This document shows positions 7,888 to 42,466 of a stretch of 64,000 nt of DNA, one piece after another (the stretch's first letter is position 1; every line of letters begins with the position of its first letter). Where the stretch lies: contig NZ_AYTW01000005.1 in the NCBI RefSeq assembly GCF_002752635.1, positions 1-64,000 on the forward strand. The letters are read 5' to 3'. A model generated the notes under the pieces. That model was given only the letters and a program-made list of their open reading frames with translations. It was not told the DNA's origin and did not search any database. The position numbers and the translations under genes were made by a program. This DNA is from Mesotoga sp. Brook.08.105.5.1 (GTDB taxonomy: Bacteria > Thermotogota > Thermotogae > Petrotogales > Kosmotogaceae).

Positions 7888-8544
7888 ATGCCGATTGACT
7901 TCAGAATGACAAAAAAAGGGCTGATTCTTCTCATTGACTCTTACAGAACCGTCGATGAATTGAGGCAAGACATCATGAAGAAGTTTGCTGACGCGAAGGA
8001 TTTCTTTCGTGAAGGAGATGAGATCTCGCTCATGCTTACTCAAGATACAAGCAAACCGGATGACATCGTTAAGATCGTCTCGCTGTTGAGTGATCTTGGT
8101 GTCCACGTTAAGGACATACTCGTGGGTAGTATGGAGCAGAAGGATGTGAAAGTCGGTCAGAAGTATGATCTTGTTAGAGAGAAGATTACTGAAGTCCGAG
8201 GAGCTCAGATCATTAGGCGTAATCTCAGATCAGGACAGATAGTTGTTCACAATTATGATGTTGTGGTGGTTGGCAATGTTCATCCCGGTGCAGAGGTAAT
8301 CGCCGGTGGTAGTGTTGTAATATTTGGAAGTGCAAGAGGGGTTGTTAGAGCCGGTTACTCTCAGGGTGAAATCGGGATAATCGCAGCGATCGATTTGCAG
8401 CCTTCACTGATCCAGATTGGGAATTTCATAACTCAGGAATACGATCGTTTTGATAAGCCTGCCGTGGCACACGTAAGGACGGGCAGGATAGTAGTTGAAG
8501 AGGCGGACAATGTTAAGTTTGAAGTAAAGGGGGAGGCGAATTGA
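7888..8544 (+). CDS. minC: Septum site-determining protein MinC
   Basis: 218 residues. Inhibitor of FtsZ polymerisation that keeps septa away from the poles together with MinD. The N-terminal domain (1-100) matches the FtsZ-binding part; the C-terminal domain (about 115-215) is the right-handed beta-helix, seen in the repeated glycine pattern VVVVGNVHPGAEVIAGGSVVIFG, here quoted as VGNVHPGAEVIAGG. The start is ATG at 7888, 9-10 bases after AGGGG. A T. maritima homologue (TM1047) also precedes M42 peptidases. MinD and MinE are not in the window. It opens the long plus-strand operon; the next gene starts within its stop (TTGA). Confidence 0.93.
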   Translation: MPIDFRMTKKGLILLIDSYRTVDELRQDIMKKFADAKDFFREGDEISLMLTQDTSKPDDIVKIVSLLSDLGVHVKDILVGSMEQKDVKVGQKYDLVREKITEVRGAQIIRRNLRSGQIVVHNYDVVVVGNVHPGAEVIAGGSVVIFGSARGVVRAGYSQGEIGIIAAIDLQPSLIQIGNFITQEYDRFDKPAVAHVRTGRIVVEEADNVKFEVKGEAN

Positions 8545-9554
8545 GTTTAGCCAGGTTATTGATTAATCTCTCCAATGCCTTTGGACCTGTGGGATACGAA
8601 GATGAGGTCCATTCGGTAATTAGGGAAGCGATAGGTCCGTTTGTGGATGAGACCTATACAGACGAAATTGGAAATCTGATTGCAGTTAAGAAAGGAAGTG
8701 GGAAGAGAATAGGCGTATTCACTCATGTTGACGAGGTATCGCTTGTGATTTCGAGAGTCGATGAAAGAGGGTTTGCAAGGTTTGAAGAGCTAGGAGGCGT
8801 CGATCCTAAGGTATTGATTTCTCAGAAGGTTAAGATCAGGAGCAGAGATGGAAAGGAAAGATCAGGAGTAATTGGAATGTTGGCTCCCCACCTTCAGAAA
8901 AGGGAGACAAGAGGAGAAGTCCCTTCTTTCGATGAGCTCTTCATTGATGCTTCGATTAATCCGGATTATGAGAAGATAGGTGTTGGCGATCTTGCAGTAG
9001 TAGACATTTTAGCGTTTGAGATGAACGGCAAGGTTGCTGGGAAAGCTCTTGACGACAGAGCGTGTGCAGCGATAAGCATAGAGACTGCAAGAGAGCTCTC
9101 GAAATACAGTACAACTCCTACCGTCTATTTCGTGTTCACAACAAGAGAAGAAGTCGGGGCAATAGGAGCAAAGGGCGCCGCTGAAGCTTTGGAAATCGAT
9201 CTTGGTGTTGCCATGGATGTTACTCACCATGACAAAGAGAACGATGTCGAACTTGGAAAGGGTCCGGCCTTAACTGTTGGAGGCCCGAATATCCACAAGA
9301 AGTACTTTGAGTTACTCGATAAACATGCGAAAGACAATGAAATCAAAGTTCAATATGACTTCACCTCAGGTAGAACGGGAACTGATGCAGACAATGTCCA
9401 AATAGCCGGCACCGGAGTTCCAACGCTTCTGCTTTCTCTCCCTGAAATGTTCATGCACACTCCAGTCGAAGTAGTTCAAGTTAGTGATGTTGCAGGAACG
9501 GCCAGATTACTTGCAGGATTTTTCATATCACTGAAGGGGGCTGAGGAGCAATGA
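8541..9554 (+). CDS. M42 family aminopeptidase (TET-type), first paralogue
   Basis: 337 residues. Zinc-dependent exopeptidase whose relatives form large tetrahedral TET assemblies that trim peptides. Metal-site and catalytic motifs: THVDEV (His62, Asp64), KALDDRACA (bridging Asp), REEVGAIGA (catalytic and ligand Glu), AMDVTHHD (Asp) and MFMHTPVE (His). Homologues are often mislabelled endoglucanase or CelM. TTG start overlapping the minC stop, with GGGGGAGG before it. First of three tandem paralogues in a translationally coupled string. Confidence 0.93.
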   Translation: MSLARLLINLSNAFGPVGYEDEVHSVIREAIGPFVDETYTDEIGNLIAVKKGSGKRIGVFTHVDEVSLVISRVDERGFARFEELGGVDPKVLISQKVKIRSRDGKERSGVIGMLAPHLQKRETRGEVPSFDELFIDASINPDYEKIGVGDLAVVDILAFEMNGKVAGKALDDRACAAISIETARELSKYSTTPTVYFVFTTREEVGAIGAKGAAEALEIDLGVAMDVTHHDKENDVELGKGPALTVGGPNIHKKYFELLDKHAKDNEIKVQYDFTSGRTGTDADNVQIAGTGVPTLLLSLPEMFMHTPVEVVQVSDVAGTARLLAGFFISLKGAEEQ

Positions 9555-10591
9555 AGCTAGAACGCCTGAAAGACCTTTGTGAACTCCCGGGAATATCAGG
9601 TTTTGAGGAAAAAGTCTCTTCCTTCATCAGGAGCATTGTCGAGCCAAGAGTCGATTCGATCTGGACCGATACAGTTGGAAACCTAATTGCGGAGAAAAAA
9701 GGGACGGGGAAGAGTTCTAAGAAGCTTATGCTTCTTGCTCATACCGATGAGGTTGGTCTTATGGTGAAGAAGATCAATGAAGACGGCACACTCTCTTTCA
9801 CCAGTGTAGGAGGAGTCGATCCAAGAGTATTGATGGGTAAAAAGGTTTTGGTGGGAAAGGATTTTGTTCCTGGGGTGATAGGGTTTGAAGCCATACACAC
9901 TCAGGATCCAACCGCTTTGCTTAAAACACCAAGCATGGGCAAACTGAGAATCTATTTGGGTTATTCAAAGAAGGAAGAGGCTCAGAAGAACCATCGCATT
10001 GGAGACCCAGTATTCTTCGATACTCAGTACGAAGAGATTGGCGACTATGCGATTGCGAAATCATTTGACGACAGGACGGGGTGCGAAGTATTAATAAGGA
10101 TTCTTGAGAGCCTTGAAGGGTACCGTCTGGATTTTGATGTCTATTTCGCCTGGGTGGTCCAAGAAGAGGTTGGTCTGAGGGGAAGCGGGGTCGCGGCGAA
10201 ACAGATAAAGCCGGACGCAGCTCTTGTGTTCGAGAACACTACGGCTGGAGACAACCCGGAGCTTCCTGATTACAGGTGGGCCACAAGTCTTGGAAGAGGC
10301 CCCGTCTTAACATTTGCCCACAGTGGATTGGTGCTAGATAAGAGGATACTCGACACAATCGTGGATACTGCTAAGAAAAACTCAATAGAATTCCAGTACA
10401 AGAGCAGGATAGCTGGGGGTACTGATGCAGCTAGGCTTGCAAGAGTAATTTCGGGTATACCGTCAGGTGTTATCTCGACTCCTTCGAGATACATACATTC
10501 TCCAACTTCTGTAATAAACGTCAATGATTTTCTCGGAGTGGTAAAACTCGCCAGTTTACTAGTTAAGGAAGGGAAGGTGCTGTCTAGATGA
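9551..10591 (+). CDS. M42 family aminopeptidase (TET-type), second paralogue
   Basis: 346 residues. Motifs: LAHTDEVGL (His64, Asp66), KSFDDRTGC, QEEVGLRGS, and SRYIHSPTS. At the position of the usual fourth ligand (Asp in DVT) the sequence is VFENTTAGD, with Glu in place of Asp, as in one M42 subgroup. This suggests a different metal preference or side-chain specificity from the neighbours. The ATG overlaps the previous stop in ATGA. Same order as the T. maritima TM1048-TM1050 triplet from memory. Confidence 0.92.
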   Translation: MKLERLKDLCELPGISGFEEKVSSFIRSIVEPRVDSIWTDTVGNLIAEKKGTGKSSKKLMLLAHTDEVGLMVKKINEDGTLSFTSVGGVDPRVLMGKKVLVGKDFVPGVIGFEAIHTQDPTALLKTPSMGKLRIYLGYSKKEEAQKNHRIGDPVFFDTQYEEIGDYAIAKSFDDRTGCEVLIRILESLEGYRLDFDVYFAWVVQEEVGLRGSGVAAKQIKPDAALVFENTTAGDNPELPDYRWATSLGRGPVLTFAHSGLVLDKRILDTIVDTAKKNSIEFQYKSRIAGGTDAARLARVISGIPSGVISTPSRYIHSPTSVINVNDFLGVVKLASLLVKEGKVLSR

Positions 10592-11598
10592 AAAAGCTGA
10601 TTGAGAAACTGGTTACGATTAGTTCTCCCAGTGGTAGGGAGGATGCTATAAGGGAAGCGATCGCCGAAGAGATCAAACCATACGTTGATAGCATGAAGAT
10701 AGATCCGTTAGGCAATCTTGTTGCTCTGAAGAAAGGAAAGAGTGGCAAGAAGCTGTTATTTGACGGTCACATGGACGAAATCGGTGTCGTGGTCACACAT
10801 ATCGACTCAAATGGTTTTCTCAGGATTGATTCGATAGGTGCGCTGTCTCCATATATGCTTTTGGGTTCGAGATTGATTTTTGAGACAGGAGCATCAGGTG
10901 TCGTTGACCTAGAAGGTGAGACGATCAAAGAGCTCGGGGAGAGCATCAAGAATCTTGATTTCGACCACATTTTCGTTGACATCGGAGCAATAGATAAGAG
11001 TGATGCAGAGAGGAAGGCACCGATCGGGACTTTTGGAACATATGATTCAGAGTTCATCGATCTTGGAAAGAGACTCATCTCGAAATCTATGGACGACAGG
11101 ATCGCCTGTGCAATTATGATACAGGTCTTGAAAGAGCTAAAGGATCCCAAAGACGATGTTTACTTTGTCTTCGCCGTTCAGGAAGAAGTTGGACTAGTGG
11201 GTGCAAGTGTCGCTGCATTTGATATTATGCCAGATATGGCTGTTGCAGTAGATGTTACCACAGGACCCGACACCCCGAAATCTTTGAAGAGAATGGGATT
11301 CAAACTTGGAGAAGGACCTACGATAAAGATAAAGGATCGCGGAAGCATAAGCTCTTCGAGAGTAGTATCTAGATTGAAGGAGATTGCTGAGAAAAAGGAG
11401 ATTCCCACTCAGTATGAGGTCTTGATTTTTGGAGGCACTGACGCTAGAGGTTACCAGACGACCGGAAGAGGAATAGCCTCAGGAACGGTCTCGGTTCCTT
11501 GCAGATACGTGCACTCGCCTCACGAGATGGTTGATTATGATGATGTTCTTAATGCGGTTCGTCTGTTAAAGGCACTTGCTGAAGAAGGAGTGGAATGA
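10588..11598 (+). CDS. M42 family aminopeptidase (TET-type), third paralogue
   Basis: 336 residues. Motifs: DGHMDEIGV (His61, Asp63), KSMDDRIAC, QEEVGLVGA, AVDVTTGPD (Asp) and YVHSPHEMVD (His). All expected metal ligands and the catalytic Glu are present, so it should be active. ATGA overlap with the second paralogue. The three proteins share only the family pattern, which suggests old duplications with different substrate ranges (as acidic, basic and hydrophobic residue-specific TETs in archaea) rather than recent copying. Confidence 0.92.
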   Translation: MKKLIEKLVTISSPSGREDAIREAIAEEIKPYVDSMKIDPLGNLVALKKGKSGKKLLFDGHMDEIGVVVTHIDSNGFLRIDSIGALSPYMLLGSRLIFETGASGVVDLEGETIKELGESIKNLDFDHIFVDIGAIDKSDAERKAPIGTFGTYDSEFIDLGKRLISKSMDDRIACAIMIQVLKELKDPKDDVYFVFAVQEEVGLVGASVAAFDIMPDMAVAVDVTTGPDTPKSLKRMGFKLGEGPTIKIKDRGSISSSRVVSRLKEIAEKKEIPTQYEVLIFGGTDARGYQTTGRGIASGTVSVPCRYVHSPHEMVDYDDVLNAVRLLKALAEEGVE

Positions 11599-22373: not shown

Positions 22374-22927
22374 GAACAATCTGCGACCACATACTGGATA
22401 TTGCTCAGAACTCAGTAGATTCTGGAACAAAAACAGCGAAGTTAACGATCGAAGAAAGGAAGGAAGAGACTCTCTTTTTCTCGGTTGTGGACTGGGGTAA
22501 GGGCATTAATGCTCAATCTTTGGAAGCAGTCATGGATCCTTTCTATACGGAAAAGAAAAAGAAAGTCAATTTCGGATTAGGCTTGCCGATGCTGAAGTTT
22601 GCAGCTGAATCTACGGGAGGCAACTTCGAAATTCGTTCAGAGCCTGGGATTGGTACAGAGGTTAGCGCACTGTTCATTCTTTCAAGTGTCGACTGTCAGC
22701 CTGTAGGTGATGTCCCATCGACTCTATTTGCTGTGATTACTATGAAAGACAATGTAGACTGGACAATAGAGAGAGTTCTAGATGAAGATGGTTATTCTTT
22801 CTCCTCGGCTCAATTCAGAGAAGTTCTGGGGAACGACTGTTTCGTTTTTCCAGTCAAAATGAAGATGATTCTTGAAATTCTTCAGGAGGCAGAAATTTCA
22901 CTGGGAGGTTTATCGGATGTCCATTAG
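22364..22927 (+). CDS. Stand-alone HATPase (histidine-kinase-like ATPase)
   Basis: 187 residues. GHKL ATPase fold: N box HILDIAQNSVDSG, G1 VVDWGKGIN, F box DPFYTEKKKK and G2 FGLGLPMLKFAA, followed by an extra C-terminal 60 residues of mixed structure. No dimerisation or phosphoacceptor domain. It overlaps the PHP gene by 10 bases and ends after the bamA start, so it closes the signalling module. Homologous stand-alone HATPases lie beside bifurcating hydrogenase genes in several anaerobes (from memory). Confidence 0.83.
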   Translation: MGLRTICDHILDIAQNSVDSGTKTAKLTIEERKEETLFFSVVDWGKGINAQSLEAVMDPFYTEKKKKVNFGLGLPMLKFAAESTGGNFEIRSEPGIGTEVSALFILSSVDCQPVGDVPSTLFAVITMKDNVDWTIERVLDEDGYSFSSAQFREVLGNDCFVFPVKMKMILEILQEAEISLGGLSDVH

Positions 22928-25388
22928 AAGATTATCGATTATTCTTAGTCTGCTTTTGCTATGTGGGTTTGGTTTGGCAAGCATCGTTCCGTCAAGGATC
23001 GCTGTTCTTGACAACAGAGTGATCTCAGACAACGAAGTTCTAGAGATTCTGAACATTCAGCGTGGAAAGGAAATAAGCGGTTCTGAACTAGAAGAGGCGA
23101 TAGAGAGAGTGAAGAACAGTGGTTACTTTTCCGATGTGTATCACAGCTTTGATGAAGCATCCAGACTTCTGACAGTTCAGGTCAAAGAGTACCCTGTTGT
23201 AGAGGTTTCAGTTGTTTTCGACGGTCCGAAAATCGTTGAAACATCTCTACTCGAAGCTGCTTCAGTTATCAAGAGTGGCAAACCTATGAATCCTTCAAGG
23301 TTGATGTATGATATTCCCTTAACCCTAGAAGCAATAGAGAGCAAACTGGCTGAAAGCGGTTATATAGAACCGTTTGTACGGGTAGAGTGGGAGACCGATA
23401 AAGACAGAGCCGACGTTTTTTCAGGCAATGTTACTGATAAGGTGAAGGTCACTTTTACAGTTAAAATCTCTTTCCTGTGGGAGCTTTCGATCGATGCTCC
23501 AATATCGGATGAAGCTAAATCCTATCTCCTTAGTAGATTGGAGATAGATTATTTGAAAAAGTATTACGATACTTCGATCCTGATTAGATGGGTCAATTCT
23601 AAGAAAAAGTATGTTCCAAGAGTCGAAGACATTAACAGAGTCGTTCAGACGATTTACTCCACTTATTATGCTAATTCAAACGGACAGTGGGGATTCGATG
23701 ACAGAACTTATCAGGCGATGATCGTGACACTGAATAACGCCCTGAAAAGCGTGAGACAGGTGACGCTTCCCGATGAAGTTAGGGAAAGCAGCGCATTATC
23801 AATGAGTATCACTTTCACGCCGATAGAGTATGTAAAATCGGGATTCGAATTAAGAAGTGTCTTTATTGAGGGGAACGTTAACTTGCAGAAAGGAGAAATC
23901 CTTAGACAGACCGGTCTTGCTGAAGGTCAGAAGGTTGACAATGAGATTGCGGCAAAGGCAATTCAGGCAGTTCAAGACTTATATACCGATAGGGGTTATC
24001 CCTTTATGAGAATTGAGCCGGTAATTGATGAAAAAATCGGCTTCTTCAGTCTGAAGATAACTGAGCCCTTAGTGAGAGACGTAACAGTTGAATTTGATGG
24101 TCCAAAGAAGACTCAGGATTATCTCATCAATGACAAAATCGTCATTGAGAAGGGTAAGGTTTTGTCCTTGGATGAGCTTAGAAACACATATGCCTTCTTA
24201 AACAACACAGGTTACTTCTCGAAAGTGGATATTGCTCCTGTTCCTGTAGGTAGCGATGCATTGGATGTGAAGATCACGCTTACGGAAACCGATAAAAACA
24301 ACAGGATTGGTGGCGGCGGAGGATGGCAGAATGGTCTGAATCTTTATCTTGATCTGGGACTGCTCAATGTGTGGGGTTATGGTCAGAATATCTCAACTAC
24401 GCTCAGTGTTACCCTTCCAATGCCCAACAACAAAGAAGTTGTTTTGACTGAAGGAGCCACGGAAACAACAACGAGAAGACCGGCCTTTGATGCCACTATA
24501 GGCTATTCGATTCCCAAGATCGGTGGTTCCAGGCTTGATTTGGACACGGCCTTCAGACTGAAATTTACTGGATTTACGACAACAATCGATTCCACCGATA
24601 CCATAGTAACCAAAGCTTCTCAGGATACAGAGTTCATGCTCTCATTTACTCCAAGTTACAAGCTGTCACCCGGACAAAAAATTGGGTTTACTGCGGGGTA
24701 TGAGTATATTATGTCAGAGAGCAAGGTTTCTACAGAGACTAAGCCTGCGACTGGCGACGATACTGGGAGCGTCTCCGAAAGCTTTGACGGGCTGTTTACT
24801 GGGATAAGTTATCAGCTCTCTACCCGAGATGACATCCTAAGGCCGACAATGGGAAGTGAGTATCTTGCCGGCCTCACTGCTAGAGGTATCCTTGGGAAGG
24901 ACGACAAACTGTTCCTTTCGGGATATGCAGAGTACAAGAATTTCATGTCAATAGGAGATCCAGTTCTTGGCTTCAGGATAAGAACGCAGCAGCTTTTCCC
25001 GCTCTCTTCTAACGGTGTCTTCAGAAACTATCTGTTTAGCCCGGACTCTCTCATTAGGGTAAGGGGTTCTCAGAGTATCGGTCAGAATTCCTACGGTGTA
25101 ACTGTCGGTTCTGCCCAGCTGAGATATCCGTTGACACCGGAAACATCGTCAATACCTGTTGACATAGTTGGGTTCGGTGACTTGCTTTTCTATCGGAACA
25201 GTTCGGGCGGGGACATAATCGGAGGAAACTTTCTTGCTGATTTTGGTCTTTGCATAGATATATCAATTCCAATGATTGGGTTGGTTCGTCTTGGTTACGG
25301 ATACAACACGAGCCTTGCTGAACAGAATTCCATGTATGGCAAGCCGTATTATGGAACTCCCTTCTTTGGTTTTGGGCCTGCATTCTAA
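22917..25388 (+). CDS. bamA: BamA/Omp85-family outer-membrane assembly protein
   Basis: 823 residues from ATG 22917, chosen because GGGAGG precedes it and a signal peptide (residues 1-21, ending GFGLAS) follows directly. POTRA-like units fill the N-terminal half, for example RIAVLDNRVISDNEVL, LRSVFIEGNVNLQKGEIL and VTVEFDGPKKTQDYL. The C-terminal ~350 residues are a beta-barrel with alternating polar and aromatic strands, ending in Phe (FFGFGPAF), the classic outer-membrane signal. It folds barrel proteins into the sheath-like outer membrane of Thermotogae. It overlaps the HATPase gene by 11 bases and ends the operon at a strong terminator. Confidence 0.92.
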   Translation: MSIRRLSIILSLLLLCGFGLASIVPSRIAVLDNRVISDNEVLEILNIQRGKEISGSELEEAIERVKNSGYFSDVYHSFDEASRLLTVQVKEYPVVEVSVVFDGPKIVETSLLEAASVIKSGKPMNPSRLMYDIPLTLEAIESKLAESGYIEPFVRVEWETDKDRADVFSGNVTDKVKVTFTVKISFLWELSIDAPISDEAKSYLLSRLEIDYLKKYYDTSILIRWVNSKKKYVPRVEDINRVVQTIYSTYYANSNGQWGFDDRTYQAMIVTLNNALKSVRQVTLPDEVRESSALSMSITFTPIEYVKSGFELRSVFIEGNVNLQKGEILRQTGLAEGQKVDNEIAAKAIQAVQDLYTDRGYPFMRIEPVIDEKIGFFSLKITEPLVRDVTVEFDGPKKTQDYLINDKIVIEKGKVLSLDELRNTYAFLNNTGYFSKVDIAPVPVGSDALDVKITLTETDKNNRIGGGGGWQNGLNLYLDLGLLNVWGYGQNISTTLSVTLPMPNNKEVVLTEGATETTTRRPAFDATIGYSIPKIGGSRLDLDTAFRLKFTGFTTTIDSTDTIVTKASQDTEFMLSFTPSYKLSPGQKIGFTAGYEYIMSESKVSTETKPATGDDTGSVSESFDGLFTGISYQLSTRDDILRPTMGSEYLAGLTARGILGKDDKLFLSGYAEYKNFMSIGDPVLGFRIRTQQLFPLSSNGVFRNYLFSPDSLIRVRGSQSIGQNSYGVTVGSAQLRYPLTPETSSIPVDIVGFGDLLFYRNSSGGDIIGGNFLADFGLCIDISIPMIGLVRLGYGYNTSLAEQNSMYGKPYYGTPFFGFGPAF

Positions 25389-31961: not shown

Positions 31962-34736
31962 TCAAAGCGTTTCGAAGAGCGAGATTAAGCTTTGTATCTG
32001 ATCAACGGTTTTCTCTGGAAGATTGGGCGTCTTCTCAATCAGATCCCTATTTAGATTGACCACTCTTTCGTAAATATTTTTCAGATTTTGCTCGAAGTTA
32101 CTTAATTCTTCTCCAGAAAGATTTGATCTGCCCCACTGTACTGCGAATTGCAGTGTTTCGTCTGGAGTTGCCGGTCCCATGTTCTCACAGGCCCATACGT
32201 GTTTCCGGACAACCTCAAGTATCTTCAGTTTCTGTGCATCTATAGAATCAACAATCGAGGGTATTGAGTTCAAGTATTCAATGTAGATGTCCTCCCAGTC
32301 CGGGTATCTGTTCCATGTGCCGGGAAGAAGAGTGATCGCAAGATCAAACCAGTAAGTTGCTCGAATACCACTTTCGTATACCAGATCTATGATTATCTGC
32401 CTGAACTCTCCGCTTTCTCCGAAGGCAGAGACCACAGTGCTTTCTCTAGAATTGATGAAGTTGAAGTACTTCTTGAGTTCGCTATTCAAGCTTGTGTATA
32501 GGCGGCCAAGAATCCTTGGCGTCTGGCGCTCGCTGAACAGTATAACAGATGATTCATAGTAGTCGGCAGCATCGAGTATCATCTGAATCTGTGTAATGAA
32601 GTAAAGCTGTAAGCCCGACACAAGTTCAGGATTGTCGAAAACCGAAGCGTGCTTCTGGAAGAACTCAGCGAACGGAAGAGTTCTAATGCTTGTTCTATGA
32701 ACCGGAATTATTTCGGGATCTCCCTTGAACTCAAGTATTATGTCAGAGGAATACTCATCCTTCCCTGTTAGAATCGATTTCATGAGCTCCGGGTTGTCTC
32801 TCACTGTCTCAAGTCGCTGTGCCTTTGTCCCCAGGCCTGCAATATACCATAAGGGTTTGCCAAATACGGGATACAGTCTATTTGAAAGTTTGAAATCGTC
32901 TAATGCCTTATCATAGAACTCCCCCGCCTTGGAAATATAGAAGTTGTACTGGTTTATTCGATTGTTTATCTCATCCAATAGTTTTCTGATCTCGCTCTGT
33001 CTCTCTTTTTCAGCTAGCTCAAGAAGATCGATTTGATTGGCGCCAGGATACTTCGATCGGATCTCGCTTCCCTTCACATTCATATAACTCGCGACATCTT
33101 GCAGGTGAGCGTAGTTGCCAGAGAAAGTGCTGATCTCATTCTTGATTTGCTGAAGAGCACTTAGATTGATGTTCTGTGCTTGATTATAGTAAGCAAGATA
33201 ATACTGCTGGTTAGTTTGTCCAATCCTGAAGAAGCCCTCTCCAAGAAACGCCGACGTCTTCAGGAAGATCAGTACGGCGGCTATAGCGAACAAGGCCACC
33301 ACAGCAGGAACTCTTGGAAGCTTTCTTTCCTTAAGATCTGGATTGAAGTACTTTCCAACGGCGATAGATCCCAAAAAGATGGCCAGCATAAGATTTGGCT
33401 GCATATGGAGAGGAAATTCAAAGAAACTGTGAACTGCCAGGGAAAATATTCCCGCTCCCAGGGAGCCATAAAGCAGCAGATCCCTCTTATTGTCTATTCT
33501 GAACAAGTTTTTTACGTACCTGAAGACCAGTAGGCCGACCATCAATACAATGAAGAGGAGGCCGATGATTCCCATCTCTCCCAGACCCTGGATGTAGTCG
33601 TTGTGAGTCCTCTTGAAATTATTCCATACAGGCATGAAGTCAGGACTATGGTTAAGTACCTGAGGACTGTATAAGAGATGATACAGCTGAAACGTTCCGA
33701 TTCCACTCCCGAAAGGGATTCTCAGCTTATTGTTATCATCGAGCCACTGGAAAAGCGAGTTGTACCATGCTGAGAACCTCTCTTTCCACGATCCAGAGGA
33801 AGTTAATACATATTCAAGTCTGGCAGTGATATTGATTTTTCCGTCGCCGGTCAGGGGAGATGGTGTGAGATAAAGATATGACAATACGGCTATGATTACT
33901 AGAGCCAAGAGAAGAAAGATGAGTGAGAGTCTTTTCAACTTCTTCTCTTCAGAGGTTTCCAGAGCTTCTGGCTTCTTTCCTTTCCTCAAGAAGAAGTACA
34001 ATAGCAAGAATAGTAGATTGCCTATGAATATCGCAGTTATTACCGTTCTTGTCTGTGATACAAATACAGAGGCTACCATCGGAATCAAGAATACCAGCAT
34101 GATTATCTTAAGGATAAGTTGACTTCTTGCACTCTTGAACAGAATCCCGAGTGGTCTTCTGGAGATCAGGAAATAGAAGATCATAGGAATTGTCATGCCC
34201 ATGTAATCAGAGACGAAATTCGGGTTTCCAATAGTCGATCTAGCGGAGGCTCTTGCAAAAGGTTCTCCGACCTTGCCTAGAAAAATGTCAAATCCCAGGT
34301 AGAAGTTAAGGAGTGCATCAGCTGCGACAACGGCTGCTCCAATCAAGAAGAACAGCATAATTACTTCAATCTTCTCGACGGAGTCCCATTTGCTGGAAAT
34401 ATAGATCGCGGTGAAGGAAAGGAACACAACATAAAGAGCAATCTCCAAAGAGTACCTGAAGTACTGAGGATTGTCCATCGAAACCACAATCAACGAGAGT
34501 AAGGCAGCGATTCCGATTCCGAAAAAGGCCAGATGTACGTACCCAAATCGCATCAAAACCTCTCTCTTCCTAATAAACACAGAAAGGAAGATTACTGTGA
34601 ATCCGACAACGTAGAAGAGATGTTTTCCGGTTGAAGGCTCGTGTGTGAATCCCTTGGTGACAAACAAAGGAATAAACAGAGTCAGAATCAGATAAACAAT
34701 GGTTTCGAAGTCTATTAGTTGTTTCTTCTCCGTCAT
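31962..34736 (-). CDS. O-antigen ligase/polymerase-like membrane protein with a long C-terminal domain
   Basis: 924 residues from ATG 34736, with GAGGTGG 5 bases before it; an upstream GTG at 34745 overlaps that site. About 12-13 membrane helices fill residues 10-470. The Wzy_C/ligase signature FKRTHNDYIQGLGEMG lies in a long loop (about 350-370). After the helices, about 400 soluble residues are mostly helical and appear TPR-like, unusual in length. It should polymerise or transfer surface glycans outside the inner membrane. It ends the exopolysaccharide module and is separated from the BY-kinase gene by about 100 bases. Confidence 0.82.
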   Translation of the reverse strand: MTEKKQLIDFETIVYLILTLFIPLFVTKGFTHEPSTGKHLFYVVGFTVIFLSVFIRKREVLMRFGYVHLAFFGIGIAALLSLIVVSMDNPQYFRYSLEIALYVVFLSFTAIYISSKWDSVEKIEVIMLFFLIGAAVVAADALLNFYLGFDIFLGKVGEPFARASARSTIGNPNFVSDYMGMTIPMIFYFLISRRPLGILFKSARSQLILKIIMLVFLIPMVASVFVSQTRTVITAIFIGNLLFLLLYFFLRKGKKPEALETSEEKKLKRLSLIFLLLALVIIAVLSYLYLTPSPLTGDGKINITARLEYVLTSSGSWKERFSAWYNSLFQWLDDNNKLRIPFGSGIGTFQLYHLLYSPQVLNHSPDFMPVWNNFKRTHNDYIQGLGEMGIIGLLFIVLMVGLLVFRYVKNLFRIDNKRDLLLYGSLGAGIFSLAVHSFFEFPLHMQPNLMLAIFLGSIAVGKYFNPDLKERKLPRVPAVVALFAIAAVLIFLKTSAFLGEGFFRIGQTNQQYYLAYYNQAQNINLSALQQIKNEISTFSGNYAHLQDVASYMNVKGSEIRSKYPGANQIDLLELAEKERQSEIRKLLDEINNRINQYNFYISKAGEFYDKALDDFKLSNRLYPVFGKPLWYIAGLGTKAQRLETVRDNPELMKSILTGKDEYSSDIILEFKGDPEIIPVHRTSIRTLPFAEFFQKHASVFDNPELVSGLQLYFITQIQMILDAADYYESSVILFSERQTPRILGRLYTSLNSELKKYFNFINSRESTVVSAFGESGEFRQIIIDLVYESGIRATYWFDLAITLLPGTWNRYPDWEDIYIEYLNSIPSIVDSIDAQKLKILEVVRKHVWACENMGPATPDETLQFAVQWGRSNLSGEELSNFEQNLKNIYERVVNLNRDLIEKTPNLPEKTVDQIQSLISLFETL

Positions 34737-34838
34737 TGAGACCACCTCGAAAAATGAGATTAGAATTCTACAAAGAGATACCTTCTCAATATGTTGTCTT
34801 CATAGCTTGCCAAAAAGCAACGTTATTGCCTGAAACTT

Positions 34839-37049
34839 CTACTTGCTGGTTCTCTTCCTTCTCTTTTTTCTTTTTCCTTCTTCGTTGTAATAGTAATAGT
34901 AGTGGTAGTAATAGCTTGAATTCTTCTCATCTACTCCATTGACTATTACTCCAAGAATCTTCACTCCCACGGTCTTGAGATTCTCCACAACTATTCTCAA
35001 GCCATCCTTTATTGCCCTTCCGGGCCTAACAACTAGCACGATTCCGTCTAACTTGTTTCCCACCAAAGAAACGTCTGAAGTGACAACCGCCGGTGGCATA
35101 TCTATCAGAACTCTGTCATATCTCTGCTTCAGTTCAGAAAGGAGAGTGTCGATCCTTTTCGACGAAAGGACTATTGTGGGATTTGGGGGAATGATTCCCA
35201 CTCCTATGAAATCCATGTTTTCAGCGTAGTTCTCGACAACGTCATCAATTGAGGCAGTTCCCATTATCACATCCACCGCGCCCTTGGTTCTCTTGCCAGC
35301 TTTGAGTATCTTTTCGACCCTGGGGCGACGCAGATCAAGGTCCAGGAGGACTACTCTTTGACCGCTGTTTGCCATTGAATAGGCGATATTTGCAATTACG
35401 AAACTCTTTCCCTCAGTAGGGAGAACCGATGTAACTGCCACCGTCTTTCCCTCGCCCATCGTGAAAGAGAGATTGCTTGCTGCAAGCTTTATCGATTCTG
35501 AAGAAGGTGCCGTTGGGTTTTTCTCTACATACATTTCTTCGCTTGTTCCTTCGATACTCGGAATTCTTCCGATTATCGGCTGCCTACTGAAACGTTCTAT
35601 CTCTTCCTCTGTCTTGAGAGTTTTGTCGAGGTACTCGGCAAGAAAGACCATTAGCATTCCAAGAAAGATCCCCAAAACGCCTCCAATGGCCAGAGATAGT
35701 TTCTTGTTGGGTTTCACCGGCGACTGAGGCACGGTCGCGGGGTCGACAATTGCAGCGTTTCCAACTACGGCAGCTTCACTGATCTTTGCCTCCTCAAGTC
35801 TCTCCAGAAGCAAGGTGTAGAGGCTCTCTTTAACTGCTATCTGCCTCTCAAGATCGAGCAGCTGTTGCTCCTTTGCCGGCAGGTTTCTCAGTTCAGATTG
35901 ATACTGGTCCCTCAAAAGACCCACTGCCTGAATCGAAGCTTGAAGGATTTGAAATCCTGCTTCTGAACTGATGACGCCAGTTATTATCTGCTGGTACGCA
36001 GGATTCAAGGTCATGCCCTGGCCTGAGACTATGAACTCGTTTTGAATCTGTTCTGCTATCAAACTCTCAGTCTTCGAAATCTCTGTGATTTTCGATCTCA
36101 CTCTAGGGTCAGTTTTTGGATACTGCTCCTCCAGCGAAGCAAGCTCAACTTGAAGAGTTGCAAGGCTCTGTCTTAGACTGGTAAGCACGGGGTTTACGGA
36201 AAAACTCTCAGATGTCTGAACCCAAAGTGCCTTTATGCTCTTTGAATCAATGCTGTCAAAATCGTCGAGCATACTCTGGTAAGTTTCGATTTCAGCTTTC
36301 TTCTCTTCAGCGGAGATCATCAGTTCGTTGTGCTGCTTGTCATAGTTGCTGAGCATTTGGAATAGTTGATCGGCATGCTTGTCGAGTACGTAGATGCCTG
36401 TTTCTTCTTTGAACTGCTTTATCTTATCGGTAGCCTCGTTCAGATCGCTCTCCAGAAGTGGGATCTGTGCCTCAATGAATTCACGTTTTCTTGTCAGGTC
36501 TCTTTTTGACAATTCTGCCAGTTTGGTATTGTAAACCTCGGCTAGAGTATTGGCGATATCCCTCGCAAGAACGGGGTCCTTGTTCTGAACTGAGACTCTG
36601 ACAATCCTGGTATCCTTAACAGGTGAGACAGTTATCATTGATGAAATACTTCGCGTGAGTGAAGCTACTAGATCACGGTCCGAATAACCTTCCGATAGTA
36701 GCCGAGCCTTCGTATCTTCTGAATATACTCTGTCGACCAACCCGAGCACTTCGATTATCTCTTCGATGTTCGTCCTGCTCTTAATAAGTTCAACCTCGGT
36801 TGAGATATTCGATCCCGAGCTCCCTGTAAGGGAACTACTAAAGAGATCCCCCACAGATGATTGAGAGGTTGGATCGACTTTGATGGTGACGCTGGCTTCA
36901 TAAATTGGCGTAGCGAAAATGAGATAAACGCCTGTGACAACAACTACCGCAAGTACAATAGAAATGAAGAGAACCATTCGCTTCTTAAACATTCTAAAAA
37001 TGTCTTCAAGAGTTAGTTCCCTATAATCGCTGCCCTCGAACTCGCTCAC
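34839..37049 (-). CDS. Wzz-type chain-length regulator fused to a BY-kinase
   Basis: 736 residues. Wzz domain at the N-terminus with a first membrane helix near 30-52 and the second near 450-470, and a coiled periplasmic region between (about 190-400). The cytoplasmic tyrosine kinase (about 480-715) has a deviant Walker A in TSVLPTEGKSF, Walker A' in VLLDLDLRRPR and Walker B in VLIDMPPAV. The C-terminal tyrosine cluster is SSYYYHYYYYYNEEG, nine tyrosines within 12 residues. Such kinases control capsule or exopolysaccharide polymer length by autophosphorylation. GTG start after GGAGGTG. The phosphatase lies immediately upstream. Confidence 0.94.
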   Translation of the reverse strand: MSEFEGSDYRELTLEDIFRMFKKRMVLFISIVLAVVVVTGVYLIFATPIYEASVTIKVDPTSQSSVGDLFSSSLTGSSGSNISTEVELIKSRTNIEEIIEVLGLVDRVYSEDTKARLLSEGYSDRDLVASLTRSISSMITVSPVKDTRIVRVSVQNKDPVLARDIANTLAEVYNTKLAELSKRDLTRKREFIEAQIPLLESDLNEATDKIKQFKEETGIYVLDKHADQLFQMLSNYDKQHNELMISAEEKKAEIETYQSMLDDFDSIDSKSIKALWVQTSESFSVNPVLTSLRQSLATLQVELASLEEQYPKTDPRVRSKITEISKTESLIAEQIQNEFIVSGQGMTLNPAYQQIITGVISSEAGFQILQASIQAVGLLRDQYQSELRNLPAKEQQLLDLERQIAVKESLYTLLLERLEEAKISEAAVVGNAAIVDPATVPQSPVKPNKKLSLAIGGVLGIFLGMLMVFLAEYLDKTLKTEEEIERFSRQPIIGRIPSIEGTSEEMYVEKNPTAPSSESIKLAASNLSFTMGEGKTVAVTSVLPTEGKSFVIANIAYSMANSGQRVVLLDLDLRRPRVEKILKAGKRTKGAVDVIMGTASIDDVVENYAENMDFIGVGIIPPNPTIVLSSKRIDTLLSELKQRYDRVLIDMPPAVVTSDVSLVGNKLDGIVLVVRPGRAIKDGLRIVVENLKTVGVKILGVIVNGVDEKNSSYYYHYYYYYNEEGKRKKRRKRTSK

Positions 37050-37063
37050 GAAAGCACCTCCAT

Positions 37064-37726
37064 CTAGAGATAGTAATCGTTCAAAAAAAGCCTATATCGA
37101 TCATCGTGAAAATCTATTAAGAGTCTGTTGTCGCCAGACTTGTGTTTATCGCTTCCAATGATCTCGGCTATTCCTTCGTTGATAAGAACCCGAGTTCTGG
37201 GATTCTTGTCGAGACTGTTCCAGTTTACCTGAAAGAGAACTCCCATGTCTCTAAGCCTAAGTATATCGTCTGTAAGCTCTTGCTTGCCAAAAAACAACCC
37301 GCTTTTTCTGAAAAGGTATTCATAACGCTCAACATGAGCAAGTATTATTCTTAATCCCTTGACCTGCAGTTTTTCGATCACTTCAAACAGATAGTGAGGT
37401 CTTCGCTGCGTTGGAAGCTCCAATAGAACAGTGTTTGACCCACCCATAGTAATCAGATCGGCATCCAGTATCTCTGGTCTAAAGAATATCTCAGAGCCAA
37501 GCAAGACTTCAACTGAGTGAGAGTTCAGTTCAAAATGGTATTCGTTCCATCTCTTCACTATCCGTTCAGGATCGGAAGGACTCATCGGGGAAAAAAGGTG
37601 AGGTGTCAAGTAAAGTCTCTGAAGCCCCTTGAGCTTCATTTCTTCAAGGAGTGCCAGAGACTCCTCAATGCTATCAACACCGTCATCCACTCCAGGGAGC
37701 AGATGGCAGTGAGAGTCGATATTCAA
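37064..37726 (-). CDS. CpsB/YwqE-type PHP protein tyrosine phosphatase
   Basis: 220 residues. Metal-dependent tyrosine phosphatase of the PHP fold. Motifs: DSHCHLLPGVDDG (HxH), LTPHLFSP, GSEIFFRPE, LAHVERYEYLF and GSDKHKSGD (DxH). It removes phosphate from the tyrosine cluster of BY-kinases; here the target is the next gene, 14 bases away. TTG start, 10 bases after GAGG. It follows the SLBB export gene by 12 bases. Confidence 0.93.
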   Translation of the reverse strand: MNIDSHCHLLPGVDDGVDSIEESLALLEEMKLKGLQRLYLTPHLFSPMSPSDPERIVKRWNEYHFELNSHSVEVLLGSEIFFRPEILDADLITMGGSNTVLLELPTQRRPHYLFEVIEKLQVKGLRIILAHVERYEYLFRKSGLFFGKQELTDDILRLRDMGVLFQVNWNSLDKNPRTRVLINEGIAEIIGSDKHKSGDNRLLIDFHDDRYRLFLNDYYL

Positions 37727-37738
37727 TGCAGATCAACC

Positions 37739-40700
37739 TCACTTGAATATGCCGACGGCCGAATTCACTATGCTAAGCGATGAAGCAACAATCGACATGA
37801 TGTCCTTGATGTTCACGATAGACGACTGGGGAACGAAAATGATGTTTCCCGGCGTCAAAGGAACGTTGCCTTTCGCAGGCTTTCCCTTCTGCTGATCAAG
37901 ATCAAGTACTAGAGGCTGTTTGTCAGGGTCCTGGAACAGCAGCGCGTTACCTAACACTGCATAACTTGTGGGACCTCCCGCCTCGACGACCGCCTCGATT
38001 GCCGTTATGCCATCATAGAACCTTACAACTCCCGGTCTCTGCACTTCGCCAAAGACGTACACTCTGGCGGGTTCAGAATAAGGAACATATATCGTTGACC
38101 CCGGTGAGACAGTCCTTCTGGTTAATGTGAGGAAATCTTCCGGGGTAGTAATCACTTCTTCAGTCTTTCCGGAATAAGAGATGAAGATTCTGCCCCTGGT
38201 TTCGAAGCTGGCAAGACCCCCTGCAAGACTCAGTAGTTCTGCAAGCGAAAGCTCCCCATATTCTGAAACAGAGAATATGCCTGGTGACTTGACGTCTCCT
38301 ACGATAGTAACGAATGAATCATAGTTTCTTAGCGCAACAATGGTATCATCATCCTTAACATAGCTTCTAGCCAGTTCCTCGGTCTTCAGTGCATCTACCA
38401 GCTTTATTGTGCCATCGATTCCTACAAGACTGAGCGTAGTCACTGATTTGTCGAGTCCTCCAGCAACTGCAATCGCTGTCGCCAATGAAGGTTTTTCTCC
38501 GCTGATCTCGTACTTTCCAGGTCTTACTACATCGCCGAGCACTGTGATTGATATCAAGGATTTGCTCGACACATAAATGTATGAGTTGTCTGATAGAGGA
38601 TCCCCTCGCTTTTGCAGAACCGATGCGGTGAACTCGCTGACGGATTTTCCATCATGAATTACTATCTTTCCAACCTGATTCTCGTCAACTATTCCGCCCG
38701 CTTTGGCTATTGCATCAGAAAGAGAATGGCTTTCATCTACGCTAAATGTGTAGAGGCCTGGATTGTTTACTGCACCCAGAACAGTTATCCTAATCACCTT
38801 TCTTGGAACGATAACCGTGCTTCCCGCTTCAATTACCGTATCTCTACCTTCGTTTTTGACTTCAGCCAGACTAATCGGGAGAATCTCTCCGGAAGGCATG
38901 AGAATCCTAACTTGATCTGAAGCAGTAATCTTCTCTCCTCCTGCTCTCGCAAGTGCTCTGAGAACAGTGATCTCCTCTTCGAAGGAAAACTCAAACTTGC
39001 CAGGAGAATTCACCTCTCCGCTAACATAAACGTAGCGGTCATCTCCGGCAATGTACACAGTCTGACCTGCCGACAAATGAATGTCTTCACCTTCAATTAG
39101 GTCGAACCAGCGAATCTCTCTGTCTTGATCTGTGATCTTTATATTAGTAGCAGCCCTATTTGTTAGACCGCCGGCCTTGGAAATGGCTAGCATCAGGCTA
39201 GGGGTCTCATTCTTGTAAAACTCGACGATTCCCGGGTTTCTAACTTCTCCAATTACATTCACTCTAACAGCCTCATAAACTGGTACATATACGAAGGACC
39301 CATCTTCGAGCGTAAGATCGAGGGCCTTTCCTAGTAGTATTGGGTCAACATTTACTGTGGAAGTTCTACCAAAAGGATCTGTTATCTGTATCTTGTTGCT
39401 GAGTGCAAGTGGCGTCATCCCGCCAGCTCTTGCAATTAGAGTAGTCAATGTAACTTTTTCTCCTGGCTCGAACTGAACTGATCCTGGACTATTGACTGCA
39501 CCAACCACAAATATCTGGCGGAGAACGTTGGGATACACGATTATCGATCCGGGTGAAAGTACCATGTCATTATCTTTGAGATCGGAGATCTGTCTTTCTC
39601 TTCTTGTTCCGTCGGGAAAAATCACAGTTACTCTACTGTTTGAGTCAAAATCAAGCAGGTTATGCTTTGCAAGGGCAGTTCTAAGGGTGATCTCCTCATT
39701 ACTAGAAAAGTCAACTCTCCCGCCTCTTTCTCTCGAGATAACGTAAACGAACCGTTCTGAAGTCTCGGGCACGTATACTATTGAACCACTTGTTATCTGT
39801 GGATCAAGTGATATGCCCTTTATAACTGCCTGAAGGTCAAGTTTCTTGCGTTGGTCGGATTCAACTATTTCAACGTTTTTTGATAGAGGATCGATTAACC
39901 CTCCGGATATTGCTATTAGCTTTGTCAGGGTGGGATTCGGTTCTTCTCTGCTAATCAATTTGAGCCCAGGCTCCTTTACACCACCAAGAATGTACACATA
40001 TCTTGATTCTATCTCGGGCACGAAGACTGTTGCTCCATCAGGAATAGACGGAGGGGTATCCTTCGATAGATCATCAATAGTATATACGGTTATTGAGGCT
40101 GCTCTCGAGTCAATTACTGTTATGCCGTATCTGTCAGCATAGTCATCAAAACCACCGGCAGCGGAAATCACGGTAGCCAGGTTGAAGGGGATACCGGGTT
40201 TCAGGGTGATTGTACCTGGGTTTCTTACTCGCCCAAGAACATTCGCCACGTTGCTTGCCTGCGGATAGAACACAACACTTCCTGTCTCAAGTTCCCAGTC
40301 AGTCTTTATTAGAGAACTGATAGGAATCCTTCTTTCGCCGCCGTCAGGAGATATCACCCTTATTTCCTTCTCTGAGGAAATCTCTACGAGATTTAGTTTC
40401 GCCAGAGCGTTTCTCAATGTGATCTTCTCTCCCGAAGAGAAGTCAACTTTGCCTCCGCTGTTGTCGGAGATAACGTACACGAATCTGTTGTCGATTCTTG
40501 GAACATAGATTAAATCGTCATACCCAATTTTCGGGTCTATTGAAAGACCTTTAAGAACTCTATCGAGATCGACGTCGATTATTTTCGTTCCTGAAAGAAC
40601 CTGTACTGAAGAAATGTCGGCATTTTGCGAAAATCCTCCACCCGCGCTAATGGCTCTGGTTAAGAGAAGGTCATCTTCATCTAGCTCGATTTTTCCCGGT

Positions 40701-42466
40701 CTTCCCACTTCTCCAAACAAGTATACCCAAGTGCTGGTGTCAGGAACAATTACGATTGAGCCGGGTTCAAGGAAGTAATCCTTCTCTTCCAACTCCGAGG
40801 CAGGGATCTCTAGATTAGTACCGTTTGAACTAATTATCGAAATGGACTTGCTTGACTTGAAATTAAGGAGATTGATTCTGGCAAGAAGGTTTCTCAGGGT
40901 GAAGGCTTCATTCTCTTGAAAGTCGACTCTTCCTCCCTCTGTGGAAGAGACAACGTAGACAAATCGCTGTTCTTTCTCCCTAACAAGAACAATAGATTGC
41001 GGTTCTAGAACCAGAGAGCTTCTAGTGGCCTCTTCTATTGACAAGAGCCTTGTTCCGTCTTTCATAAGAACCTCGACAAGTCCTGCCTTTTCATTAAGAC
41101 CGCCCGACTTAGCAATTGCTCTACTGAGAGTGATTTCTTCGAAATTTGAAAAGGGTAGAGAGCCTGGGTTTCTAACCTCTCCAGTTACAAAGACCGTCTT
41201 CTCTCCGTGGGGCAGGATAATCATCGAACCTGCCTCGAGAAGCATATCCTCTTTTTTGATGGAGTCATAACGTTTTCCAGAAGGTTCAACTATCACGACA
41301 GAATCGAGACTAGATGGGTCGTATAGGTCTACCTTAACCAGAGCATTTACAAGAGTAAGATTCTCGTCGATACTGAATTCTACTTTTCCGCCGAATGATG
41401 CTGAAGCGACATAGACGAACCTTTCTCGCAGACGAGGAACGAAGACCGTATCACCCGGATTCAATTTCACGTCATCGATTGAACCGCTCAAGAGCTTATC
41501 GACTTCAAAGGACTCAGGCACCGCGACGCCACTTCTCAGAATGTACAATCCTTCTGATGCAGTTTGTCTAAGGCCGCCGGCCTCTCCAATTGCCTGTAGA
41601 AGGGTAAGTGTTTCACGGTATGGTAGCGATGTTGGGTTGTTGAACTCACCAAGAAGTTTCACGGATTTTGATGAAGAATCGTTTGCTATTACGATACTCC
41701 CGGCGGGGACTTCCGGGTCGCTTACTCTTCCAAATAGTATACTATTCAGGTTTATTGAGGATGAGTTGCCCTGGAATTCGTCGCTAATGATCAGAATCTC
41801 TTCTTTGTCGGCCGTTTCGGCAAGGCCGCCCGACTTAGCAATAACCTGGGTTAACGTAATGCCTGGATTGAATTTCACTAGAGTAGGTGACCTGAACTCT
41901 CCCATAGTCAAGATCCATGCTTTTGTACCCGTTGGAACGTATAGGGTTGAACCTTCCGTAATCTTCTCCTTCAAAGCTTCGCCTGCCGACAAAATGGAAG
42001 ACAGATCGACGTGCTTTCTGGTTCCATCCTTATAGACAACGAAGGCAGAAGAGAGATCTGCCCCATCCTGGAGCCCGCCAGCAAGGGCAAGAAGCTGAGA
42101 GATTCCGATCGTGCCTTCATGCCACTCTATCGCCCCTGGTTTGTTTACTTCCCCAAGGATGTAGAACATGAATGGTGCATATGATTTCACAGATACCGTA
42201 ACCTGTGGTTTAGATGTAAGGATGCCCTGATTTAAGAACTGAGAAGACAGCAAAGATTGGATTTCTTCGAGAGTCTTTCCCAGTAAAGCAATATTTCCTA
42301 GCGGTGGAATAGAAGCGGTACCGTCAGGACCAACAAGTACTTCGCTGGAAAGATCGCCTGAACCATAAACAGAGATCAATAGCAGATCACCTGGTCTAAC
42401 CGAGTATCCGAAAAGGGAAACTGTAATAACAAGCAATATTAGAAGCGGGATGATTCTAAAACGCAT
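37739..42466 (-). CDS. Giant polysaccharide export protein with about 18 SLBB-type repeats
   Basis: 1575 residues, about four times Wza (379). Signal peptide at 1-20, then a Poly_export (PES) domain: RPGDLLLISVYG, DGTASIPPLGNI. From about 100 to 1510 the chain is made of SLBB-type repeats. About 14 have the core G-x-V/F-x-x-P (ILGEVNKPGAIEW, VTGEVRNPGSL, VIGEVRNPGIVEF, ILGGVKEPGL, VFGEVQRPGVV). About 4 have a diverged form VYVxSxxxGGxVxF, which alternates with the first in the middle (VYVVSSTEGGRVDF, VYVISDNSGGKVDF). The C-terminus has a hydrophobic helix (IMSIVASSLSIVNSAVGIF). Role: channel or scaffold for polymer export across periplasm and sheath. AAGGAGG precedes the ATG. Confidence 0.92.
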   Translation of the reverse strand: MRFRIIPLLILLVITVSLFGYSVRPGDLLLISVYGSGDLSSEVLVGPDGTASIPPLGNIALLGKTLEEIQSLLSSQFLNQGILTSKPQVTVSVKSYAPFMFYILGEVNKPGAIEWHEGTIGISQLLALAGGLQDGADLSSAFVVYKDGTRKHVDLSSILSAGEALKEKITEGSTLYVPTGTKAWILTMGEFRSPTLVKFNPGITLTQVIAKSGGLAETADKEEILIISDEFQGNSSSINLNSILFGRVSDPEVPAGSIVIANDSSSKSVKLLGEFNNPTSLPYRETLTLLQAIGEAGGLRQTASEGLYILRSGVAVPESFEVDKLLSGSIDDVKLNPGDTVFVPRLRERFVYVASASFGGKVEFSIDENLTLVNALVKVDLYDPSSLDSVVIVEPSGKRYDSIKKEDMLLEAGSMIILPHGEKTVFVTGEVRNPGSLPFSNFEEITLSRAIAKSGGLNEKAGLVEVLMKDGTRLLSIEEATRSSLVLEPQSIVLVREKEQRFVYVVSSTEGGRVDFQENEAFTLRNLLARINLLNFKSSKSISIISSNGTNLEIPASELEEKDYFLEPGSIVIVPDTSTWVYLFGEVGRPGKIELDEDDLLLTRAISAGGGFSQNADISSVQVLSGTKIIDVDLDRVLKGLSIDPKIGYDDLIYVPRIDNRFVYVISDNSGGKVDFSSGEKITLRNALAKLNLVEISSEKEIRVISPDGGERRIPISSLIKTDWELETGSVVFYPQASNVANVLGRVRNPGTITLKPGIPFNLATVISAAGGFDDYADRYGITVIDSRAASITVYTIDDLSKDTPPSIPDGATVFVPEIESRYVYILGGVKEPGLKLISREEPNPTLTKLIAISGGLIDPLSKNVEIVESDQRKKLDLQAVIKGISLDPQITSGSIVYVPETSERFVYVISRERGGRVDFSSNEEITLRTALAKHNLLDFDSNSRVTVIFPDGTRRERQISDLKDNDMVLSPGSIIVYPNVLRQIFVVGAVNSPGSVQFEPGEKVTLTTLIARAGGMTPLALSNKIQITDPFGRTSTVNVDPILLGKALDLTLEDGSFVYVPVYEAVRVNVIGEVRNPGIVEFYKNETPSLMLAISKAGGLTNRAATNIKITDQDREIRWFDLIEGEDIHLSAGQTVYIAGDDRYVYVSGEVNSPGKFEFSFEEEITVLRALARAGGEKITASDQVRILMPSGEILPISLAEVKNEGRDTVIEAGSTVIVPRKVIRITVLGAVNNPGLYTFSVDESHSLSDAIAKAGGIVDENQVGKIVIHDGKSVSEFTASVLQKRGDPLSDNSYIYVSSKSLISITVLGDVVRPGKYEISGEKPSLATAIAVAGGLDKSVTTLSLVGIDGTIKLVDALKTEELARSYVKDDDTIVALRNYDSFVTIVGDVKSPGIFSVSEYGELSLAELLSLAGGLASFETRGRIFISYSGKTEEVITTPEDFLTLTRRTVSPGSTIYVPYSEPARVYVFGEVQRPGVVRFYDGITAIEAVVEAGGPTSYAVLGNALLFQDPDKQPLVLDLDQQKGKPAKGNVPLTPGNIIFVPQSSIVNIKDIMSIVASSLSIVNSAVGIFK

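Follow-up and report, generated by a model that had tools for sequence, protein, structure and literature searches.

The sequence analysed here, referred to as the window, is a stretch of 64,000 nucleotides from Mesotoga sp. Brook.08.105.5.1 (contig NZ_AYTW01000005.1, positions 1 to 64,000 of the forward strand), and the gene under study lies at 37739-42466 on its minus strand. Judged from its sequence, the product is an OPX (Wza-type) protein, with a single Poly_export (PES) domain and 18 SLBB units. Across the Thermotogota, the SLBB span of these proteins co-scales with the rod of OmpA, an outer-membrane tether. The SLBB repeat stack thus probably tracks the width of the gap between the outer membrane and the cell. 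The comparison of SLBB span with OmpA rod is the new result; multi-SLBB OPX proteins themselves were already known.

The open reading frame encodes 1575 amino acids with no internal stops, and a GGAGG is located a short way 5′ of its ATG. Pfam places one copy of Poly_export (PF02563) at residues 21-94 (E 1.7e-16 / 4.7e-17, above the cut-off), followed by 12 stretches of SLBB (PF10531). Residues 1-20 are basic and then hydrophobic, like a signal peptide; no lipobox was seen on inspection by eye. A profile made from the protein's own repeats resolved 18 contiguous units of ~80 amino acids each, starting at residues 100, 184, 269, 349, 425, 505, 581, 661 and 741 (units 1-9) and 822, 904, 985, 1069, 1145, 1227, 1307, 1386 and 1468 (units 10-18). 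With a profile built from other Thermotogota families alone, all 18 were recovered at 26-58 bits, against 3.6 bits for the best of 200 shuffles. An earlier note on this DNA had described an SLBB export protein of Wza type, a single 1575-residue chain with one PES and about 18 SLBB units, and had named structure prediction, a profile search of the units and a length survey in other Thermotogae as checks. The reading frame, Pfam and the unit profile agree with that description, and the PES and SLBB architecture, together with Wza as the best PDB match, bears out the Wza-type identity. Six other genomes of this genus have full-length orthologs (58-77% identity), some of these genomes being single- or two-contig assemblies, and the protein is long in other families also. 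An assembly error or one-genome oddity was therefore ruled out; no full-length protein of the genus has fewer than 18 units.

A Poly_export protein was found in 83 of 103 Thermotogota genomes, nearly always exactly one. Contig-truncated proteins and a 5-unit frame in genus g19 were set aside, and the complete proteins examined carry 7-20 SLBB units by the profile count, so that long OPX proteins occur phylum-wide. The unit number is 18 in the home genus (g1), 20 in g4, 16 in g5 and 13 in g3. By family it is 7-15 in the Petrotogaceae-like f2, 10-11 in f8, 9-14 in f9 and 10-13 in f10. The statement of the earlier note that Wza-type proteins usually have two to three SLBB domains understates the published range: in an OPX census, Pfam domain counts run from 1 to 14 SLBB behind Poly_export (PMC9603273). 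The Mesotoga protein has the same layout and scores 12 by that count, and the 20-unit g4 relative scores 14; the size of the Mesotoga protein is thus within the known range, and a record was ruled out. There is no mention of Thermotogota in the census text, and no literature tying SLBB number to Thermotogota or to envelope depth was found. In two species of one genus, the OPX proteins L050 (G057) and L060 (G058) are 33% identical while the OmpA proteins are 73-85% identical, and G057 shares its unit pattern with genera g34 and g35, which suggests OPX gene exchange.

OmpA (Omp-alpha), the outer-membrane tether of Thermotoga maritima, has an SLH domain and a 316-residue coiled coil, with a gap of ~50 nm (PMC3387000). 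To define the OmpA rod, SLH proteins were gathered phylum-wide and the stretch between the SLH domain and the C-terminal anchor was taken. The set was restricted to proteins whose C-terminal tail is hydrophobic and whose rod measures 200-520 residues, a selection of our own that left 12 proteins outside the limits. In g35, probably Thermotoga, the rods are of 311-315 residues, agreeing with the published 316. Over 25 genera, SLBB span correlated with the longest OmpA rod with a Pearson coefficient of 0.92 and a Spearman coefficient of 0.95. Within families r was 0.84-0.86 (permutation within families, p 6e-4), and it was at least 0.905 when any one family was left out. Phylogenetic contrasts based on GyrA gave r 0.84 when each genus was represented by a single tip of the tree, and contrasts over all tips gave 0.72 with the longest rod. 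No significant relation was seen in the contrast test for the controls, genome size and GyrA length. The slope corresponds to 22-26 rod residues, or 33-38 Å, per SLBB unit (reduced-major-axis interval 28-49 Å). About 31 Å per ring is expected from Wza when its 140 Å, minus a 32-residue helix, is divided by three rings, an estimate of our own that takes the rings as equal and the helix as upright. The OPX proteins of close relatives differ by whole-unit insertions or deletions of 68-84 amino acids, and the pair G082 and G084 is in agreement, one unit fewer going with rods shorter by ~20 residues in each OmpA. The suggestion that such a length could span the wide periplasm beneath the sheath thus gains comparative support, although the spanning itself is what we infer.

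No evidence was drawn from genomic linkage between ompA and the OPX gene; the two are unlinked in the home genome. In f2 (e.g. L064 and L151 in G049:C16), ~10 kb of DNA carrying housekeeping genes separates ompA from the OPX gene. In some f9 genomes (e.g. L194 in G068, L205 in G076) there is another type of SLH protein, ~860-1140 amino acids in length and far longer than the ompA products.

Secretins, too, are long in the Thermotogota. Outside the home family, secretin frame length co-scales with the OmpA rod (r 0.96 within families, 0.66 in contrasts) and with OPX span (r 0.84 within families, 0.58 in contrasts). The co-scaling of OmpA, OPX and secretin favours a stack fitted to the depth of the periplasm. 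The periplasmic length of Wzc varies by 3% against 27% for OPX. Since the Wzc part is nearly constant, Wzc was ruled out as the length-adapting element despite a weak correlation (r 0.53), and OPX is the part of the machine that changes length. TamB, considered as a further ruler, had no match in 103 genomes. Secretin N-domains could not be counted with PF03958, whose matches were too weak. The sole PF00263 match of the home genome (L303, G000:C5:209283-209771, plus strand) is outside the window, in a 3908-amino-acid open frame. In G023, of the same genus, weak secretin-N matches lie 11-12 kb upstream; the frames of this genus far exceed other secretins of the phylum.

AlphaFold2 models were obtained for two overlapping segments, residues 1-984 and 822-1575, with predicted local distance difference test (pLDDT) values of 78.5 and 82.8. 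Every unit shows a beta-grasp pattern and is SLBB-like in the models, and single units matched the SLBB domains of ComEA and NuoF in the PDB at 2-3 Å. The best PDB match of the protein is Wza by sequence and Wza-type proteins by fold. Among the fold matches, GfcC comes lower in rank, and PF06251 (GfcC) gave a weak match over mid-chain SLBB units (residues 683-740), not at the C-terminus. The predicted C-terminal helix has a hydrophobic moment of 1.37 and a mean hydropathy of 1.45, and a like tail is found in nearly all genera. It may be an outer-membrane segment, possibly a shortened one. By Pfam content (Poly_export and SLBB without Wza_C or a C-terminal GfcC) the protein is formally of OPX class 3, a placement to be read with the helix in mind as a possible outer-membrane segment.

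We put at roughly 65% the probability of a ring-stacked OPX tube whose SLBB number is fitted to a periplasm depth set by OmpA. The protein would serve export in a polysaccharide pathway of the Wzx/Wzy type. Its chains would form a ring that docks on the Wzc-like kinase, with the PES towards the inner membrane. The 18 SLBB units would then build a pile of rings bringing the tube across a periplasm of unusual depth, the C-terminal helix lying at or in the outer membrane. The whole-unit gains and losses mid-chain would have fitted the stack to the distance set by the OmpA rod, while the Wzc part stays constant. Ring assembly, stacking, the polymer channel and outer-membrane insertion are modelled on Wza; the periplasm widths, and periplasm depth as the cause of SLBB number, we infer.

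Several observations weigh against this explanation. In the all-tip contrasts the correlation drops to 0.55 with the mean rod and to 0.34 with the shortest. Some close relatives are at odds with it: G038 exceeds G043 by three units and by 9 OmpA residues, and G040 by one unit with an equal OmpA, and G070 has one unit more than G068 despite a shorter OmpA. Genus g4 has the highest unit number (20) without the longest OmpA rod. Slack of about one ring is plausible because the arms of Wzc shift by ~20 Å (PMC12881504), but a three-ring mismatch would amount to ~9 nm. The secretins of the home family are off the pattern, with most g1 frames at 3900-4575 amino acids, g3 at 2635 and g4 and g5 at ~840-1050. 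In the AlphaFold2 models the packing of units is not confident (predicted template modelling score 0.32), and superposition on three Wza domains was obtained at 7.5-8 Å only. Pfam found no match to Wza_C (PF18412), with E up to 0.01 for this protein and up to 1 for its relatives.

The loose coupling in sister species would fit an SLBB number that reflects polymer handling, as a glycan-binding surface, chaperone or reservoir, rather than distance, and SLBB is a ligand-binding superfamily (PMC1796856). Polymer handling is nevertheless unlikely, as it predicts neither the OmpA-rod nor the secretin correlation, nor a slope near one ring per unit. A correlation of purely historical origin, with both proteins differing between lineages for unrelated reasons, common descent giving the appearance of a link, and length arising by neutral repeat drift, is slightly less likely still. 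It would account for unit numbers that are fixed in several genera, and for one- and three-unit differences between close relatives without a matching OmpA change, but not for the genus contrasts on the GyrA tree, the within-family permutation result or the flat controls. That the protein is a flexible beta-grasp string tethering or decorating the envelope, with no ring-stacked channel, is improbable: the monomer models and the poly-ubiquitin-like structures among the PDB fold matches are compatible with it and ring assembly is taken from Wza, but the PES is conserved, CpsB, Wzc and ligase neighbours accompany the gene in the family, and a Wzc-like gene is near many OPX genes elsewhere.

The units are of two subtypes, canonical (A) and VYVxS..GGxV (B), in the order AAABABABAABAAAAAAA. 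It had been proposed that the two alternate over residues about 350-980 and that a two-domain block was duplicated. The B subtype is real and the alternation is strict in units 3-9 (residues 269-821), but it is broken at units 9-10, both canonical. Identity is ~45% among B units against 27% among A units, which indicates at the sequence level that the B subtype was duplicated. A units preceding and following B units are 28.6% and 27.6% identical, against 27.1 ± 2.1% for random A units. A one-step duplication of an A+B block is not supported, because the canonical neighbours of B units resemble one another no more than random canonical units do. In a unit tree built from four genera of this family, units 1-3 and most of the final six group with their positional counterparts. 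Copy number varies mid-chain, where the B clade (support 0.945) expanded; some middle A units group together.

The OPX gene is in an operon with three co-directional genes that follow it downstream; they encode a CpsB-type phosphatase, then a Wzc-like kinase (the second gene after OPX) and an O-antigen-ligase-like protein, an order kept in the family. Of relatives that bear a name, the nearest are Mesotoga and Kosmotogaceae metagenome-assembled genomes. A Wzc-like gene is near OPX in many other families, but none adjoining the OPX gene was found in f2. A response regulator and a GAF/PAS histidine kinase are encoded upstream. Elsewhere in the window are an Omp85/BamA-like protein with POTRA domains (22872-25388, plus strand), part of the outer-membrane assembly machinery, and three tandem M42-family aminopeptidase genes (8541-11598, plus strand).

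Features of the OPX protein and of the genes downstream of it; positions are those of the window.
Feature	Position	Strand	Basis
Long OPX protein of Wza type (1575 aa), with putative signal peptide, PES, 18 SLBB units and predicted C-terminal helix	37739..42466	-	
Poly_export (PES) domain, PF02563	42185..42406	-	Pfam
SLBB array of 18 contiguous units (residues 100 to ~1549)	37820..42169	-	unit profile
Subtype B (VYVxS..GGxV) units: 4 (349-424), 6 (503-580), 8 (661-740), 11 (904-984)		-	
Predicted C-terminal amphipathic helix, residues 1553-1574, 22 residues	37745..37810	-	AlphaFold2 prediction
CpsB/CapC-type (PHP) tyrosine phosphatase	37064..37726	-	PF19567 E 1e-32
Wzc-like co-polymerase and tyrosine autokinase (Wzz, GNVR, kinase domains)	34839..37049	-	
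O-antigen-ligase/Wzy-like membrane protein	31962..34745	-	PF04932 E 1.6e-10

Wza of E. coli (class 1 OPX; PDB 2J58, 9R60-9R69), which partners with the Wzc co-polymerase, is a lipoprotein 140 Å long, with two SLBB units and a Wza_C helix of ~32-35 residues. The Mesotoga protein differs from it in having 18 SLBB units, a 22-residue helix, no visible lipobox and no Wza_C match. OmpA of T. maritima spans the same periplasm and its length co-varies with the OPX units, but it is a structural tether, non-homologous to OPX and not an exporter. The PilQ secretin of Thermus thermophilus differs in fold and substrate, and concerns a single species rather than a comparative series.

How big envelope machines handle a very wide periplasm is an open question, for which the Thermotogota offer a natural series. 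The chances seem evenly balanced that three unrelated trans-envelope proteins of the phylum, OmpA, the SLBB exporter and the secretin, co-evolved to periplasm depth, with SLBB number a genome-readable measure of width at a ~3-nm ring per step, up to ~70 nm in Mesotoga. If the proposed fit of stack to depth is true, one export tube covers ~25-65 nm by the gain and loss of equal-sized units, its inner-membrane partner being fixed, and the envelope depth of uncultured members could be estimated from their genomes.
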